From Alkalispirillum mobile (lineage in GTDB: Bacteria; Pseudomonadota; Gammaproteobacteria; Nitrococcales; Halorhodospiraceae): 64,000 nt of DNA. The notes below the pieces were generated by a model. It did not search any database. It was not told where the DNA came from and saw nothing but the letters and a program-made list of their open reading frames with translations. Positions 4,712 through 11,667 of the stretch are shown here, piece after piece. The number at the start of each line of letters is the position of its first letter. Position 1 is the stretch's first letter. The translations under genes and the position numbers were made by a program. The stretch spans positions 62,001 through 126,000 of the forward strand of contig NZ_RCDA01000001.1 of the NCBI RefSeq assembly GCF_003664325.1, read 5' to 3'.

Positions 4712-6076
4712 ATGTCCGCACCCGACAAGCCTGTCGCCGAGCCGATCACCCGTGTCGACTCGCTGGTGGAGTGGATGGCGGCGGGGTGCAAGCCACTGGA
4801 AGACTGGCGAATCGGCACCGAGCACGAGAAATTCGTGTTCCACCGGGGGGACCTGAGCCCGGTGCCTTACGAAGGCGAGCGGGGCATCGGCCAGTTCCTG
4901 GGGCAAATGCAGCGCTTCGGCTGGACACCGGTGCGCGAGGGCGAAAACACCATCGCCCTCAAGAAGGACCAGGCCAGCATCACCCTGGAGCCCGGCGGGC
5001 AGTTGGAGCTTTCCGGCGCGCCCCTGGAGAACATCCACCAGTCCTGTTGCGAGGTGCAGGAGCACCTCCGCCAGGTGGATGAGGTGGCGCGGGAGTTGGA
5101 TTTGGGCATGATCGGCCTGGGCTTCCACCCCACGGCGAAGCGCAGCGAGATCCCCTGGATGCCCAAGGGGCGCTACGGGGTCATGGGCAATTACATGCCC
5201 AAGGTCGGCACCCTGGGCCTGGACATGATGCTGCGGACCTGCACCGTGCAGGTGAACCTGGACTTCAGCTCTGAGACAGACATGGTGCGCAAGTTCCGGG
5301 TGGGCCTGGCCCTGCAGCCGCTGGCCACGGCGCTGTTCGCCAACTCCCCCTTCGTCGAGGGGCGTCCCAACGGTTTCCTGAGTTACCGCAGCCACGTCTG
5401 GACGGACACCGATAACGACCGCTGCGGCATGCTGCCCTTCGTCTTCGACCGGGATATGAGCTTCGAGCGCTACGTGGAGCATGTGCTCGACGTCCCCATG
5501 TACTTCGTCTATCGGGAGGGGCGGTACATCGACGTGGCCGGCCAGTCCTTCCGCGACTTCATGCAGGGCAGGCTCCCCGGCCTGCCCGGGGAGTACCCGA
5601 GCCTGAGTGATTGGGAGGACCACCTGTCCACCCTGTTCCCGGAAGTGCGGATGAAGCGTTTCATCGAGATGCGTGGTGCGGATGGTGGCCCCTGGGGCCG
5701 GCTCTGCGCCTTGCCCGCCTTCTGGGTCGGTCTGCTTTACAGCGAGTCGGCGCTGGATGAGGCGGTGCAGCTGATCGCGGATTGGGACGTGGCCGAGATT
5801 AGCGAACTGCGTGACCGGGTGCCCCGCGAAGGGCTGGACACCCCCTTTCGCGGCGGGACGCTGCGCGACGTGGCGTTGGAGGCGTTGGCCATCAGTCGGC
5901 GCGGTTTGGCGGACCGGGCGCGGCTGGACCGCCGGGGCCGGGACGAAGGGCATTTCCTGGACCTGCTCGACGGGATCGCGCAGTCGGGCCGGACGCCGGC
6001 AGAGGAACTGCTGGAAGCCTGGGAGCAGCGCTGGGATCACCAGGTCTACCCGGTCTTCAGGGAGTTCGCCTACTGA
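4712..6076 (+). CDS. gshA: Glutamate-cysteine ligase (plant/alphaproteobacterial type)
   Basis: A 454-residue enzyme that joins L-glutamate and L-cysteine, using ATP, in the first and limiting step of glutathione synthesis in the cytoplasm. The N-terminal block has GTEHEKFVF (about 33-41), the ATP-grasp-like glutamate-binding signature of GCS2-superfamily ligases, followed by ENTIALKK and [10 protein letters not shown]. Length and motifs fit the plant/proteobacterial class (about 450 aa), not the E. coli-type GshA (518 aa). Start ATG follows TTGGAGA. It stands 64 bp after the kinase fusion and is followed by the DUF523 gene with its own apparent promoter region. gshB is not in the window. Confidence 0.93.
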
Positions 6077-6123
6077 GTGGCTAGCCGGGCGGGCATTGCG
6101 TTGTCTGCCTGGCGGGACTAGCA

Positions 6124-6143
6124 TTGTACAAGACTTGTACAAT
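6124..6143 (+). promoter_or_regulatory. Tandem TTGTACAA operator-like palindromes with overlapping -10
   Basis: Two exact copies of the self-complementary 8-mer TTGTACAA occupy 6124-6131 and 6135-6142, 11 bp start to start, so they face the same side of the helix. The second copy overlaps TACAAT (6138-6143), a good sigma-70 -10 hexamer. The downstream ribosome-binding site GGAGGG (6151-6156) serves the DUF523/DUF1722 gene. The layout looks like a regulator-binding site that controls this one gene. MerR-family photosensory or B12 regulators (LitR/BluR type) are known to use TGTACA-like half sites near related ybgA/photolyase genes, but no regulator gene lies next to it here, so the identity of the factor is inference. 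Confidence 0.55.
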
Positions 6144-6162
6144 CTGATCCGGAGGGATCACC

Positions 6163-7143
6163 ATGACTCAGGCCAGTTTTATGCCGCCCCGCGACAACAG
6201 CAAAATTCCCGTGGGTATCAGCTCCTGCCTTCTGGGTGAGCCGGTGCGCTATGACCGGGGCCACAAGCGCAGCAGCTTTATCACCGACATCCTGGCCGAA
6301 TATTTCGATTTCCGCCCGGCCTGCCCGGAGGTAGCGATCGGGCTCGGGGTGCCGCGACCGCCCATCCGGCTCAGCGGTGACCCGGACAACCCCCGTGCCG
6401 TGGGGGTCAGTGACCCGGACAAGGACGTCACCGAGCCCTTGCGGGCCTACGGCGAGCAGATGGCTGGTGAGCTGGACTACATCAGTGGCTACATCTTCAA
6501 GAGCAAGTCACCGAGCTGCGGCCTGTTCCGCGTGAAGGTCTACGGTGCGCCCGGCAAGTCGCCCTCCACCCGGGGCCGCGGCCTCTACGCGGCGGCGATC
6601 ACCGAGGCCAATCCGCTGCTGCCTGTGGAAGAGGAGGGGCGGCTCAACGACCCGGTTTTGCGCGAGAATTTCATCGGCCGGGTCTACGCCTACCACCGCT
6701 GGCAGACCCTGCTCGCGGAGGGCGTTACGCCCGAACGGCTGGTGGCGTTTCACACGGCACACAAACTGATCCTGATGGCGCACGGGCGCCAGGGGTTGCG
6801 CGAGCTGGGCCAGCTGGTGGCCCAGGCCGGGGAGGGTGATATACACGCTCTCGCAGCGCGTTACGGCGAACTCTTCATGCAGACCCTGGGCCACAAGGCC
6901 ACCCGGCGCAGGCATACCGATGTGCTCTTCCACCTGCTGGGTTACCTCAAGCGGACGCTGGCGAGCGACGAAAAGGCGGAGGCGGTGGAGCTCATCCACG
7001 ATTACCGGGAGGGGCGGGTCCCCCTCATCGTGCCGGTGACGCTGTTCCGGCACCACTTCCGCAAGCACCCGGAGCCCTACATCCAGCGCCAGCTCTATCT
7101 CGACTGGCAGCCGGCAGGCCTGGGCCTTTGGAATGCCATCTGA
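6163..7143 (+). CDS. DUF523 and DUF1722 (YbgA-like) domain protein
   Basis: A 326-residue cytoplasmic protein with two domains of unknown function. The N-terminal DUF523 domain (about residues 12-160) begins with the conserved ISSCLLGEPVRYDRGHKR region and has further Cys in FRPACPEV and SKSPSCGLF, suggesting metal or Fe-S binding. The C-terminal DUF1722/YbgA domain (about 185-310) contains HTAHKLILMAHG. In E. coli, YbgA is encoded beside the photolyase gene phr and the family is linked to light- or stress-response regulons. Here the gene stands alone between gshA and an RND pump, behind a tandem palindromic site. Biochemical function is not known. Confidence 0.85.
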   Translation: MTQASFMPPRDNSKIPVGISSCLLGEPVRYDRGHKRSSFITDILAEYFDFRPACPEVAIGLGVPRPPIRLSGDPDNPRAVGVSDPDKDVTEPLRAYGEQMAGELDYISGYIFKSKSPSCGLFRVKVYGAPGKSPSTRGRGLYAAAITEANPLLPVEEEGRLNDPVLRENFIGRVYAYHRWQTLLAEGVTPERLVAFHTAHKLILMAHGRQGLRELGQLVAQAGEGDIHALAARYGELFMQTLGHKATRRRHTDVLFHLLGYLKRTLASDEKAEAVELIHDYREGRVPLIVPVTLFRHHFRKHPEPYIQRQLYLDWQPAGLGLWNAI

Positions 7144-7183
7144 CCGGGGGGTGGGCCACCGGGACCACAAGGACGATGATCGA

Positions 7184-8440
7184 GTGAGCGGCAACCGACT
7201 TCTGAAAGCACTACTGCCCCCGCTGGTGATCGCCGCGGGGGTGGCGCTGTTCCTGCTACTGCGGGCGACCGCGCCGGAGACCGAGCCCCAGCCGGTGGAG
7301 GAGCCGGCCTGGGCCGTGCAAAGCGTCGAGGTCAGCCCTACGCCGGTCCCGCCCCGGCTGCGCCTTTCCGGCTACCTGGAATCCCCCCGGACCAGCATGC
7401 TGACGGCCGCCGTGGAAGCGGATGTGGCGTCGGTGCCGGTGCGGGAGGGGCGCCGGGTGGAGGCCGGCGATGTCCTGGTGGAGCTGGACCGGGCCGACCT
7501 GGAACTGCAGCTGCGGGAACAGACCGCGGAGGTCAACGATCTGCGCTCCCAGCGGGCGCTGGAGGAACGCCAGATCGAAGCGGACCGCCGGGAGCTGGCC
7601 AATGAGCGGGAGCTGGTGGCCATTGCCGAGCGGGAGCTGAACCGTGTGCAGCGCCTGGCCGACCGGGACATGGCCTCGGGCTCCGACGTGGATGCCCGCC
7701 GCCGGGAGCTGGAGCAGCAGCAGATGTCGCTCAGCGGGCGGCAACTGGCAGTGGATTCCGCCGAGAACCGGCTGGAGCAGCTGGCGGCCCGACTGGACCG
7801 GGCCGAGGCCGTGCGCGACCGGTTCGCCCGCGACCTGGGCCGGACCACCGTGCGCGCCCCCTTCACCGGCCGGTTGTCCGAGGTCCACGTGAGCCCCGGG
7901 GACCGGGTCCGCCCCGGCGAGCAGCTGGTCCAGGTCTATGACACCCGGGCGCTGGAGGTCCGTGCCCACCTGCCGGCCGGCAAGATCGGGCCCGTGCGTC
8001 GGGTGTTGGCTCTAGAGGACGGCCTGTCCGCCACGGCGATGGTGGATGCCCAGTCACTGCGCCTGGAGTTGGACCGGCTCAGTGGCCGTTCCGAACGGGG
8101 GGAGGGCGGCGTGGCCGGTCTGTTCCGCGTGGTCGAGGGGGGCGAGGACCTGCCGCTGGGCCGCTTCGTGGCGCTGGAGGCGCTGTTGCCGGCGGAACCG
8201 GACGCCGTAGTGCTGCCCTTCGAGGCCCTGTACGGGACTCGCCGGGTCTACCGGCTGGACGATGAGCGCATGCGCGCGGTGGAAGTGGAGCGCCTTGGCG
8301 AGGCCCCGTTGGCGGATGGCCGCCGCGGCATGCTGGTGCGCAGCCGGGAGCTGACCGCGGGGACCCGGGTGGTGGTCACCCAGATCCCGCGGGCCATGGA
8401 CGGGTTGCGGGTGCGTGACCTGGGGAGTGAGCAGCCGTGA
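7184..8440 (+). CDS. RND efflux periplasmic adaptor (membrane fusion protein)
   Basis: A 418-residue adaptor that links an inner-membrane RND pump to an outer-membrane channel. A single N-terminal membrane anchor (about residues 8-24) is followed by a barrel-sandwich/lipoyl half motif (VEADVASVPVREGRRVEAGDVL, about 73-94 in part), a long coiled-coil hairpin rich in Glu/Arg/Leu (about 105-220), the second lipoyl half (TTVRAPFTGRL) and beta-barrel domains. I chose GTG at 7184 (AAGGA 10 bp upstream), which puts the anchor near the N-terminus; an ATG at 7133 overlapping the previous stop would add 17 charged residues. It overlaps the pump gene by 4 bp. No outer-membrane factor gene is adjacent, so the pump probably borrows a TolC-like channel. 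Confidence 0.88.
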   Translation: MSGNRLLKALLPPLVIAAGVALFLLLRATAPETEPQPVEEPAWAVQSVEVSPTPVPPRLRLSGYLESPRTSMLTAAVEADVASVPVREGRRVEAGDVLVELDRADLELQLREQTAEVNDLRSQRALEERQIEADRRELANERELVAIAERELNRVQRLADRDMASGSDVDARRRELEQQQMSLSGRQLAVDSAENRLEQLAARLDRAEAVRDRFARDLGRTTVRAPFTGRLSEVHVSPGDRVRPGEQLVQVYDTRALEVRAHLPAGKIGPVRRVLALEDGLSATAMVDAQSLRLELDRLSGRSERGEGGVAGLFRVVEGGEDLPLGRFVALEALLPAEPDAVVLPFEALYGTRRVYRLDDERMRAVEVERLGEAPLADGRRGMLVRSRELTAGTRVVVTQIPRAMDGLRVRDLGSEQP

Positions 8441-11400
8441 GTCGTAGGGCCACCGCCGGCAGCCTGGCCTGGTTCTCCCGGCATGCGGTCGCCGCCAACC
8501 TGGTGCTCCTGCTGATGGTGGTGGGCGGACTGTACGCCCTCAGCCAGTTGAACACCCAGTTCTTCCCCAACTTCGAACTCGACATCGTCAACGTCGAGGT
8601 GGAGTGGCAGGGTGCCACCGCAGAGGACGTGGCGGACGGTATCACCCGCCCGCTGGAGGATGAACTGCGCGACCTGGACGGGTTGCGCGAGATGGTTTCC
8701 ACCTCCGCCGAAGGCATCTCCGTCATCACCCTGGAGTTCTCCGAGGGCACGGACATGGCTCAGGCGGTGGAGGATGCCAAGGAGCGGGTGGGTCGGGTGC
8801 GTAACCTGCCGCCGGATTCCGAGACGCCCACCATCAATCGGGTCACCCGCTACGATCCCATCGCCCGCGTACTTCTCACGGGCGATCTACAGCCGGATGA
8901 ACTGCGCGGCGTGGCCCGCGATCTGGAGGAGAGCCTGCTCCAGAGCGGGGTCGCCCGGGTGCAGGTAACCGGCCTGCCGGACGAGGAAATCCGGATCACC
9001 ACCGGCAATGATCAGCTGCTGGACCTGGGCCTCTCCTTCGACCGGTTTGCTGGCCTAATCGGCAGCCAGAGCCGCGACCTGCCCGCCGGTGAGGTGGGGG
9101 AGGCGGACGTGGCGCGGCAGTTGCGCAGCCTGGAGCAGCGCCGCAGCGTTGCCGAATTCGAAAACCTGCAACTCTCCATCGATGGGCGCAACATCATGCT
9201 CGGCGACATCGCCAGCGTGGAGCGGCTGCCCCGCGACGGTGAGATCGAAGTCTACTACCAGGGCCGCCCCGCGGTGGAGCTGCTGCTGGAGCGGGCGGAG
9301 CAGGAGGATGCCCTGGACAGTGCCCGGATTCTCGAAGACTGGGTGGCGGAGACCCAACCCACCCTGCCACCGGGGGTGGAGCTGCAGGTCTTTGACGAGT
9401 CCTGGGAGCTGATCAGCGAGCGCATCGGGCTACTGGTTAAAAACGGCCTCAGCGGGTTGCTCCTGGTGGTGGGGATACTGTTCGTCTTCCTGTCCGGACG
9501 GGTGGCCTTCTGGGTCACGGTAGGTATCCCCGCCTCCTTCCTCGCGGCCCTGACCGTGCTGTGGCTGGTCGGGGGCAGCATCAACATGATGAGCCTGTTC
9601 GCGCTCATCATGACACTGGGCATCATCGTGGACGATGCCATTGTCGTGGGGGAGGACGGCCTCGCGCATTATCAACGGGGTGAGGGCCCGTGGCGTGCCT
9701 CCGAGGGGGGCGCACGGCGCATGCTGCCCCCGGTGGTGGCCTCGTCACTCACTACCATCGCCGCCTTCCTGCCACTGATGGCGGTGGGGGGCGTGATCGG
9801 CAATATTCTGTTCGACATCCCGCTGGTCGTGGTCTGCGTGATCATCGCGTCCTTGGTGGAGGCCTTCCTGGTGTTGCCGGGCCACCTGCGGCGGTCATTC
9901 GAGGCGATGCAACGCCCCGACGGCGGGTGGCCGGGCCGGATCTGGCGGTTATTCACCCGGCAACGATCGCAGCCGCCGGCGGTGGATGAGGCGGGGCGGG
10001 CGCTGCGGCCCGGGCCGGGGCCGGTGCGCCGCCGCATCGACGGGGCATTTGATCGCTTCCGGGACGGTTACTTCATCCCCGCCGTGCAGCGGGCGCTGGC
10101 CTTTCGCTGGACCACCATCGCGGTCGGGGTGGCCCTGGTGATCGGCTCGGTGGGGCTGGTGGCAGGTGGTCGGATCGCGTTCACCTTCTTCCCCAACGTG
10201 GAAGGCACCATCCTCAACGCCAACACCAGCTTCGTGGCCGGCACCCCGAGGGAGCGTACCAAAGCCTACCTGGAGCGGTTGGAGTCGGCCCTGCTGGAGA
10301 CCGAGGAGGCGCTTGGCGGTGAACTGCTGCGCGGCCACCTCGTATACGTGGGCAAGAAACTGAGCGATGGAACCGGCACCCAGGACCGCGGCGACCACTA
10401 CGGGTCCATCATGGTCGAACTGGTCTCGCCCGATGCGCGCGATGTCTCCAACAGCGAGTTCATGGCGGAGTGGCGGGAACGGGTCCCCGCGGCCGCCGGC
10501 CTGGAGGACCTGGTGATCCAGGAGCGGATGGCTGGCCCACCGGGGGATGACTTGGATATCCGGCTGATCGGCCCGGATATCCACCAGCTCAAGACCGCTT
10601 CCGAGGCGCTGCAGGAGACGCTGGCCAGCTACGCCGGTGTCTCGGCGATCAGCGACGACCTGCCCTGGGGCCAGGAGCAGTGGATCTACAGCCTGACCGA
10701 AGAGGGCCGCGCCCTGGGGCTGGACGTGGCCGAGATCGGTAGCCAGCTGCGGGCCACCTATCTGGGCGAGCTGGTCCAGATCTTCCACGAGCGGCGTGAC
10801 GAAGTGGAGGTACGCGTCCGTCTGGACGAGGGCGAACGGCGGGGACTGGCGGCGTTGTCCGACTTCCGCGTCCAACTGCCCGACGGGGGCGCCGTGCCCC
10901 TGGACAGCGTGGCCCAGATCGACAGCCGGCGGGGCTTCGAGGCCCTGCGCCATATTGATGCCCGTCAGGCGGTCACTGTGACCGCTGACGTGGACGCCGC
11001 CGTGGCCAATGCCAATCGCATCCTGGCCGACCTGGAGGCGAGTGCGTTGCCCGACCTGGCTGCCCAGCACGGGCTGGAATACTCGTTCGGGGGACGGGCA
11101 CAGGATCAGGAGGAGACCCTCGCCGACATGCGGACCGGGCTGGTGCTGGCACTGACCCTGATCTACATCATCCTGGCCTGGATCTTCGGCTCCTACGGCT
11201 GGCCGCTGGTGGTGATGGCGGTGATCCCCTTCAGCCTGGTGGGGGCCTTCCTGGGCCATTGGGTGATGGGGCTGGACCTGACCATCCTCTCGCTCTTCGG
11301 GCTGTTCGGCTTGACGGGGATCGTGGTCAATAATTCCATCATCCTTGTGGTCTTCTACCGACAGCTGAGAGAACAACGGCGGATGTCGGCGGACCGGGCG

Positions 11401-11667
11401 TTGGTGGAGGCCTCGCGCCAGCGGTTACGACCGGTACTGCTCACCTCTCTTACCACCATCGGCGGGCTGCTGCCCCTGCTGTTCGAGACCTCGGTGCAGG
11501 CCCAGTTCCTGATTCCCATGGCGGTGTCCATTGCCGGCGGTCTGGCGGGGGCCACCCTGCTGGTGCTGTTCCTGGTGCCCGCCATGCTGTCCGTCTACGA
11601 GAGCGCCGCGGAGCGCCTGAACGGCGGCGCCGACAACCGATTCCGGGAGGCAACAGACCATGGCTGA
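8437..11667 (+). CDS. RND-family efflux pump, inner-membrane permease (AcrB/MdtB-like)
   Basis: A 1076-residue proton-driven inner-membrane transporter. It has the usual RND architecture: one membrane helix at about residues 13-33, a large periplasmic loop beginning FFPNFELDIVNVEVEW, a first block of membrane helices around 335-500, a second periplasmic loop, and a final block from about 895 to the end. The proton-relay acidic pair is visible in IIVDDAIVVGED in TM4. A loop of about 50 residues between the halves is Arg/Pro/Gly-rich. Start is GTG, overlapping the adaptor stop (GTGA). Family is the HAE1/HME-like group of multidrug or heavy-metal pumps; substrates cannot be predicted safely. Confidence 0.93.
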   Translation: MSRRATAGSLAWFSRHAVAANLVLLLMVVGGLYALSQLNTQFFPNFELDIVNVEVEWQGATAEDVADGITRPLEDELRDLDGLREMVSTSAEGISVITLEFSEGTDMAQAVEDAKERVGRVRNLPPDSETPTINRVTRYDPIARVLLTGDLQPDELRGVARDLEESLLQSGVARVQVTGLPDEEIRITTGNDQLLDLGLSFDRFAGLIGSQSRDLPAGEVGEADVARQLRSLEQRRSVAEFENLQLSIDGRNIMLGDIASVERLPRDGEIEVYYQGRPAVELLLERAEQEDALDSARILEDWVAETQPTLPPGVELQVFDESWELISERIGLLVKNGLSGLLLVVGILFVFLSGRVAFWVTVGIPASFLAALTVLWLVGGSINMMSLFALIMTLGIIVDDAIVVGEDGLAHYQRGEGPWRASEGGARRMLPPVVASSLTTIAAFLPLMAVGGVIGNILFDIPLVVVCVIIASLVEAFLVLPGHLRRSFEAMQRPDGGWPGRIWRLFTRQRSQPPAVDEAGRALRPGPGPVRRRIDGAFDRFRDGYFIPAVQRALAFRWTTIAVGVALVIGSVGLVAGGRIAFTFFPNVEGTILNANTSFVAGTPRERTKAYLERLESALLETEEALGGELLRGHLVYVGKKLSDGTGTQDRGDHYGSIMVELVSPDARDVSNSEFMAEWRERVPAAAGLEDLVIQERMAGPPGDDLDIRLIGPDIHQLKTASEALQETLASYAGVSAISDDLPWGQEQWIYSLTEEGRALGLDVAEIGSQLRATYLGELVQIFHERRDEVEVRVRLDEGERRGLAALSDFRVQLPDGGAVPLDSVAQIDSRRGFEALRHIDARQAVTVTADVDAAVANANRILADLEASALPDLAAQHGLEYSFGGRAQDQEETLADMRTGLVLALTLIYIILAWIFGSYGWPLVVMAVIPFSLVGAFLGHWVMGLDLTILSLFGLFGLTGIVVNNSIILVVFYRQLREQRRMSADRALVEASRQRLRPVLLTSLTTIGGLLPLLFETSVQAQFLIPMAVSIAGGLAGATLLVLFLVPAMLSVYESAAERLNGGADNRFREATDHG

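Follow-up and report, generated by a model that had tools for sequence, protein, structure and literature searches.

The rudS Locus of Alkalispirillum mobile

The window, i.e., the whole stretch of 64,000 nucleotides that was analysed, contains a rudS-type gene that is preceded by two tandem operator-like repeats and followed by genes for an RND efflux pump. The features of this region are the following.

6096..6101, + strand: candidate -35 element TTGCGT (weak), 17 bp before TAGCAT, in a region where a consensus scan returned no match
6119..6124, + strand: candidate -10 element TAGCAT, abutting the operator; its counterpart in sister-genus rudS regions is TAGAAT
6121..6131, + strand: operator repeat 1, GCATTGTACAA, which fits nnnnTnnACAn (rule from PMC9304148)
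6132..6142, + strand: operator repeat 2, GACTTGTACAA; the pair is kept before rudS in 8/8 LitR-bearing family genomes
6151..6156, + strand: Shine-Dalgarno-like GGAGGG, from sequence
6163..7143, + strand: rudS-type gene (TudS + DUF1722), 326 aa, by Pfam; family function from PMC11417400
7133..8440, + strand: RND efflux adaptor, probably of the same operon (NCBIfam RND_mfp, above cut-off)
8437..11667, + strand: RND efflux permease, probably of the same operon (RND permease models match best, none of them reaching its cut-off)

The preliminary description had placed a DUF523/DUF1722 gene next to the palindromes, and Pfam bears this out. DUF523, in Pfam now called 2-thiouracil desulfurase (TudS), covers residues 17-158 (E 2e-36), and DUF1722 covers residues 201-317 (E 7e-39). 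Both matches lie above the Pfam cut-offs and extend over the full profile lengths, and the TudS-DUF1722 fusion by which RudS proteins are recognised is thus present at 6163-7143. Removal of 4-thiouridine (s4U) from tRNA is predicted for this protein from its family. According to PMC11417400, RudS strips s4U, a near-UV chromophore, from tRNA, and its overexpression in E. coli shortens the UVA-induced growth delay; rudS genes are often found within light-responsive operons, in Pseudomonas together with litR and phrB.

The frames of rudS, the RND adaptor (for which a GTG at 7184 is an alternative start) and the permease, at 6163-11667, overlap from one gene to the next, and the three are likely to form one operon. 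A homologue of the adaptor lies 3' of rudS in all nine sister-genus (g2) genomes, including those that lack LitR, and in G052. The overlap and the kept gene order suggest a link between tRNA desulfuration and an efflux pump.

The two exact self-complementary 8-mers with starts 11 bp apart, as first described, are present: TTGTACAA is found at 6124-6131 and 6135-6142 and at no other place in the window, while 100 dinucleotide-preserving shuffles contained a mean of 0.10 copies and at most 1. The whole 19-mer, when up to 3 mismatches are allowed, occurs once, against 0.01 expected. These 8-mers are embedded in tandem 11-bp direct repeats (6121-6131 and 6132-6142), both of which match the CarH rule nnnnTnnACAn, and their cores form the pattern TGTACA-N5-TGTACA, with a spacing of 5 between the halves. 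In Pseudomonas, class II LitR also uses TGTACA as its half site, but with 12 bases between the halves (PMC9758184). By these sequence criteria the tandem repeats are a genuine operator-like element.

The position of this element relative to the promoter differs from the initial reading. TACAAT, proposed as the -10 element, is indeed present at 6138-6143, yet the relatives favour TAGCAT at 6119-6124: TAGAAT lies two bases 5' of the first TGTACA in 7/7 LitR-bearing sister-genus rudS regions with the operator, and this upstream TAGAAT/TAGCAT is the conserved element. With TACAAT as the -10, the leader would be only about 13 nt long and the Shine-Dalgarno sequence would fall at its edge. TAGCAT is accordingly taken as the better -10 candidate. 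A consensus promoter scan of 5950-6250 returned no promoter, so the assignment is a prediction by comparison with relatives only. The putative operator, lying on and after the candidate -10, would cover the transcription start site in the manner of a steric repressor site.

Other Sites in the Genome and a Candidate Regulator

The A. mobile genome (2.95 Mb) contains three exact TGTACA-N5-TGTACA pairs, located before rudS, before folE-folB (L006; Pfam) and before a STAS/chemotaxis-like operon, and no exact copy of the reversed pattern. The folE site lies 3' of TTGACA-N16-TATTCT, with one base common to both. The third pair, at L007:1501-1517 (C3:209068), merges with the Shine-Dalgarno sequence of a STAS gene (Pfam), and the operon continues with ORFs that by eye resemble CheY, CheA and CheW. 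Light may control a chemotaxis operon here, or the pair may be due to chance. Over all spacings from 0 to 30, the genome holds 7 exact TGTACA pairs, three of them at spacing 5, and one reversed pair. With the other 30 spacings, which share the remaining 4 pairs, as background, three pairs falling on a single spacing have a Poisson probability of about 4e-4, a rough figure that was framed post hoc.

A three-repeat site with one mismatch lies at most 49 nt before an operon that encodes, in order, an FAD amine oxidase, a cyclopropane synthase (CMAS), a 301-aa MerR-type protein (LitR) and a DNA photolyase. When two mismatches are allowed, the genome has 19 sites and the reversed pattern still finds 6, so that those before a photolyase-type gene and before an alpha/beta hydrolase gene are tentative. 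The former, at L189:2254 (C2:300953), precedes a second photolyase/cryptochrome-type gene (L189:643-2217). Two pairs at the Pseudomonas spacing of N12 were considered as LitR sites and set aside: that at C2:95746 lies inside a long ORF (L188), and that at C1:1361074 (L021:1501) is followed after 11 nt by two genes that by eye resemble an antitoxin-toxin pair.

The initial reading, in which the palindromes resemble half sites of LitR-type MerR regulators, called for further sites and a candidate regulator gene in the genome. Both were found: two further exact pairs and the three-repeat site, and, behind the latter, a LitR-like gene between the cyclopropane synthase and photolyase genes.

This LitR is encoded on contig C8 (L004:14026-14931), away from rudS. 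The MerR profile PF13411 has two matches in the genome, LitR beside photolyase (MerR_1, E 9e-18) and a protein of 120 aa at C1:922577. LitR aligns with CarH over residues 2-272 (E 1e-18) and scores 101.8 bits against the NCBI CarH model, whose cut-off is 400; by sequence, the regulator is related to CarH but is not a CarH equivalog. Among the 26 LitR sequences aligned with CarH, that of A. mobile included, the region of the DNA-binding helix is similar in all.

The His177 residue of CarH is a cobalt ligand. None of the 26 LitR sequences has a histidine in this column, although two have one a single column off, in a part where the alignment is loose. In the A. mobile LitR, the one of the 26 that was scanned, Pfam recognises no B12-binding domain even at E 1, B12-binding_2 (PF02607) included. 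B12 sensing by this LitR is supported on neither count. Class I LitR, which is defined by a B12-binding domain with an axial histidine, does not accommodate this protein, and it resembles class II without formally belonging to it, as its sites depart from the N12 spacing and it lacks a PF02607 match. The literature is divided on the class II proteins: PMC9758184 does not expect them to bind B12, while PMC11417400 calls regulators of this type B12-dependent. The residues of the LitR sequences examined here agree with the former view.

If LitR does not sense light by itself, a candidate partner is at hand. The genome encodes a stand-alone LOV protein of 152 aa (L231:4117-4575) with the motif GHNCRFLQ (GxNCRFLQ). 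The protein consists of a PAS_9 domain without an effector domain, and in the PDB it is closest to LOV sensory-box and phototropin chains. Its gene does not adjoin litR. In Pseudomonas mendocina, the short LOV protein PmSB-LOV inhibits PmlR2 and thereby frees the promoter (PMC9758184), and by analogy the A. mobile LOV protein is a predicted candidate partner of LitR.

Conservation of the Putative Operator across Relatives

The family set comprised 12 genomes, eight of which (G000, G003-G009) have LitR at an E value below 1e-45. In all eight, an exact pair starts 25-46 nt 5' of the point that corresponds to residue 1 of RudS, and the other seven of these RudS proteins are 53-57% identical to that of A. 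mobile. G001 and G002 have rudS, no LitR and no pair at rudS, with one exact pair elsewhere in G002; G010 and G011 have weak MerR matches only and no pair. In the tree of RudS proteins, G001 groups with G002 as its sister (97/91), and the loss is therefore one event, which makes the co-occurrence less independent than the counts suggest. The A. mobile RudS falls outside the sister-genus clade, and thus either the operator outlasted a replacement of the gene or it arose on two occasions.

Upstream of rudS, 8/8 regions have the full score at spacing 5; at the remaining 20 spacings between 0 and 20 none has it, and neither has any of 2400 shuffles. Across the order (54 genomes, LitR called at E below 1e-40), an exact pair is present in 18/26 genomes with LitR versus 1/28 without (Fisher p 3e-7, uncorrected for kinship), so that 8/26 genomes with LitR lack such a pair; none of the 54 contains the reversed pattern. 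A rudS match is present in 25 genomes, and in these the operator is found at rudS in 8/12 with LitR versus 0/13 without. Four genomes outside the family that have both LitR and rudS (G021, G023, G030, G052) reach only 7 of 12 in relaxed scoring at rudS, which indicates that the predicted operator control of rudS is a feature of the family and not of the order. For the relaxed scores, the upstream stretch of G012 was short; the exact search covered whole genomes.

In other families, the repeats are found at litR itself: upstream of litR in 18 genomes, 16 regions score at least 9 of 12 at spacing 5, at most 7 regions do so at any other spacing, and 266/5400 shuffles reach 9 of 12. This suggests that LitR is autoregulated in these families. 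The litR-operon promoter of the sister genus has degenerate repeats only, scoring 8, 10, 9 and 8 of 12 in four genomes. No spacing-5 pair was present in the stretch examined at 76 named GTDB rudS loci (upstream sequence below 200 bases for 3/76, in a sample that may omit records near the A. mobile genome), and spacing-12 pairs were found at rudS in 9/11 Pseudomonas loci of this set.

In total, 32 exact pairs were found in 19 genomes and assigned to the nearest suitable gene start. The targets are rudS (8), FAD amine oxidase (5; three by Pfam, two by eye), folE (4), a CMAS-type methyltransferase (2), pyp (1) and a DCC-like protein (1, by eye). With the exception of pyp, these match genes that light induces in P. 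putida and P. mendocina (PMC9758184, PMC11417400). The other 11 pairs have no clear light-related target: one precedes a cytochrome b561-like gene (by eye), one the STAS operon, and nine are without a clear target.

Two arrangements among these loci may be recorded. Exact pairs at L133 (G024:C2:91255) and L135 (G026:C81:5096) precede similar ORFs of about 100-110 aa, signal-peptide-like by eye; the one that was scanned has no Pfam match, and they may add a small new gene to the regulon. At L134, L183, L184 and L185, the operator pair separates the FAD oxidase gene from a divergent gene of TetR type (assigned by Pfam at L185 only).

Photoactive Yellow Protein in a Related Genus

The pyp target belongs to G007, where an exact pair (L107:1501-1517; C45:8998) begins 85 nt before a gene whose product matches the PDB photoactive yellow protein (PYP) at E 9e-77. 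An AMP-binding ligase-like ORF follows, the order also given for the known pyp operon in PMC12826048. Upstream of pyp1, 5/7 LitR genomes (G007, L191-L195) have a spacing-5 site that scores 11 or 12 of 12 and lies 81-92 nt before the gene; none of 2100 shuffles reached 11 or 12, and one region reaches 11 at spacing 9. G005 and G008 have no site before pyp1, and five second pyp copies have none.

PYP is encoded in 7/7 LitR genomes of this genus and is absent from the two without LitR (G001, G002) and from A. mobile. Judged from PYP, this sister genus is probably Halorhodospira. The LOV motif occurs in 13/54 genomes, all 13 with LitR, and in 1/7 LitR genomes of the PYP-bearing genus, there in a large protein, with the proviso that an exact motif can miss variants. 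PYP might have replaced LOV in this genus as the light-sensing partner of LitR, which would let it act on transcription and feed back on pyp itself, and A. mobile would keep the LOV version; we consider this scenario rather unlikely. A link between LitR and PYP was not found in the titles and abstract openings of the openly licensed papers that were searched, and the terms LitR, MerR and promoter do not occur in PMC12826048, which describes the PYP signalling chain of Halorhodospira halophila as unknown. The putative operator before pyp would offer a transcriptional circuit in which PYP can be tested.

A Proposed Dark Repressor of rudS and Its Alternatives

From the sites, the regulator gene, the gene neighbourhoods, the co-occurrence and the conserved position, all of which are read from sequence, we infer binding, repression, release by light, the partnership with LOV and the physiological role along the following lines. 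LitR from contig C8 would bind the two 11-bp repeats in the dark. Since the operator abuts the candidate -10, LitR would cover the start of rudS, and probably that of the rudS-adaptor-permease operon, and block RNA polymerase. In the light, LitR would let go, most likely inhibited by the light-activated stand-alone LOV protein, comparable to PmSB-LOV and PmlR2. RudS would then remove s4U from tRNA and limit UVA-triggered cross-linking and growth arrest, and photolyase, cyclopropane synthase and folE would be induced in the same regulon. We regard it as likely that a dark repressor of LitR/CarH type acts on rudS through these repeats and is released by light, probably through LOV, with co-induction of these genes. 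The notion of a LitR-type MerR regulator has thus gained from the litR gene, the further sites and the LitR/operator co-occurrence, and the suggestion that the gene may belong to a light regulon, part of the preliminary description, fits the s4U-removing function of the family (PMC11417400).

The repeats might instead be the operator of another regulator that was inherited along with LitR. The co-occurrence is in part that of one lineage, the LitR-less G002 still has an exact pair, albeit elsewhere, and the A. mobile genome has a second MerR gene (120 aa, C1:922577). Nevertheless, a pair of the same type stands before the operon of litR itself, 16/18 litR promoters elsewhere score at least 9 of 12, and the repeats match both the CarH rule and the LitR half site, which renders another regulator unlikely.

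That LitR is a simple dark repressor can also be questioned, as MerR proteins often act as activators, and LitR might be a classical MerR activator or work both ways. Deletion of PpSB-LOV in P. putida results in constitutively low transcription of PplR-dependent genes (PMC9758184), so that this system, too, is less than straightforward. The operator, however, lies on and after the candidate -10 and not between the -35 and the -10, and CarH and PmlR2 are both repressors (PMC9304148, PMC9758184). An activator, or a dual role, is consequently quite improbable.

With its similarity to CarH over the full length and 11-bp tandem repeats like those of CarH operators, LitR could be a B12 photoreceptor like class I CarH that has no need of a LOV partner. 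The lack of a histidine in the His177 column in 26/26 sequences and of a B12-binding Pfam match in the A. mobile LitR make this very improbable. Finally, a functionless chance pair is hardly credible: the motif is short and 11/32 exact pairs lack a clear target, but the pair holds the same place before rudS in eight genomes whose other seven RudS proteins are 53-57% identical to that of A. mobile, a pattern reached in 0/2400 shuffles.

Comparison with Known Systems

The dark repressor proposed for rudS can be compared with three published systems. It is similar to the class II LitR regulons of Pseudomonas (PplR1-3, PmlR1-2; PMC9758184) in its TGTACA half sites, in its targets (photolyase, a UfaM-type methyltransferase, an FAD oxidoreductase, folE and a CryB-type photolyase), in a C-terminus without B12 ligand, in the presence of a short LOV protein in the genome and in the inclusion of rudS in the regulon (PMC11417400). 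It differs in spacing, with half sites 5 apart in place of T(G/A)TACA-N12-TGTA(C/T)A, in that rudS of A. mobile lies outside the litR operon, with an RND pump and its own operator, in that the LOV gene is not beside litR and in the absence of a B12-binding_2 match.

The operator is similar to those of CarH in Thermus, Bacillus and Myxococcales (PMC9304148), which are likewise tandem 11-bp TnnACA repeats. CarH operators overlap promoter elements, and the repeats here abut the candidate -10; the regulators are both of MerR type and align over nearly their whole length. Unlike CarH operators, which have three to five repeats, there are two here (three at the litR operon), the cores are perfect palindromes, the targets are light-repair and not carotenoid genes, and the His177 column is without histidine. 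A LitR without a recognisable B12 site is thus paired with a CarH-like 11-bp repeat operator.

The TudS-DUF1722 fusion is that of the RudS tRNA s4U desulfidases (PMC11417400), with the activity predicted here, and light-responsive operons and class II LitR control in Pseudomonas are already known for RudS (PMC11417400). The dedicated, unlinked putative operator and the conserved rudS-RND pump order set the present case apart. The element before rudS is very probably a LitR-type light repressor site that would control a predicted tRNA s4U eraser. Outside Pseudomonas, too, the removal of 4-thiouridine from tRNA would then be tied to a light repressor of LitR type, via a compact and directly testable putative operator; if this is true, a lit cell strips a UV-sensitive tRNA mark in the same response as it deploys its DNA-repair photolyase. 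Such control is of a known kind; the literature compared contains neither the spacing of 5, nor a rudS operon that is separate from litR and includes an efflux pump, nor an operator of this type before pyp.
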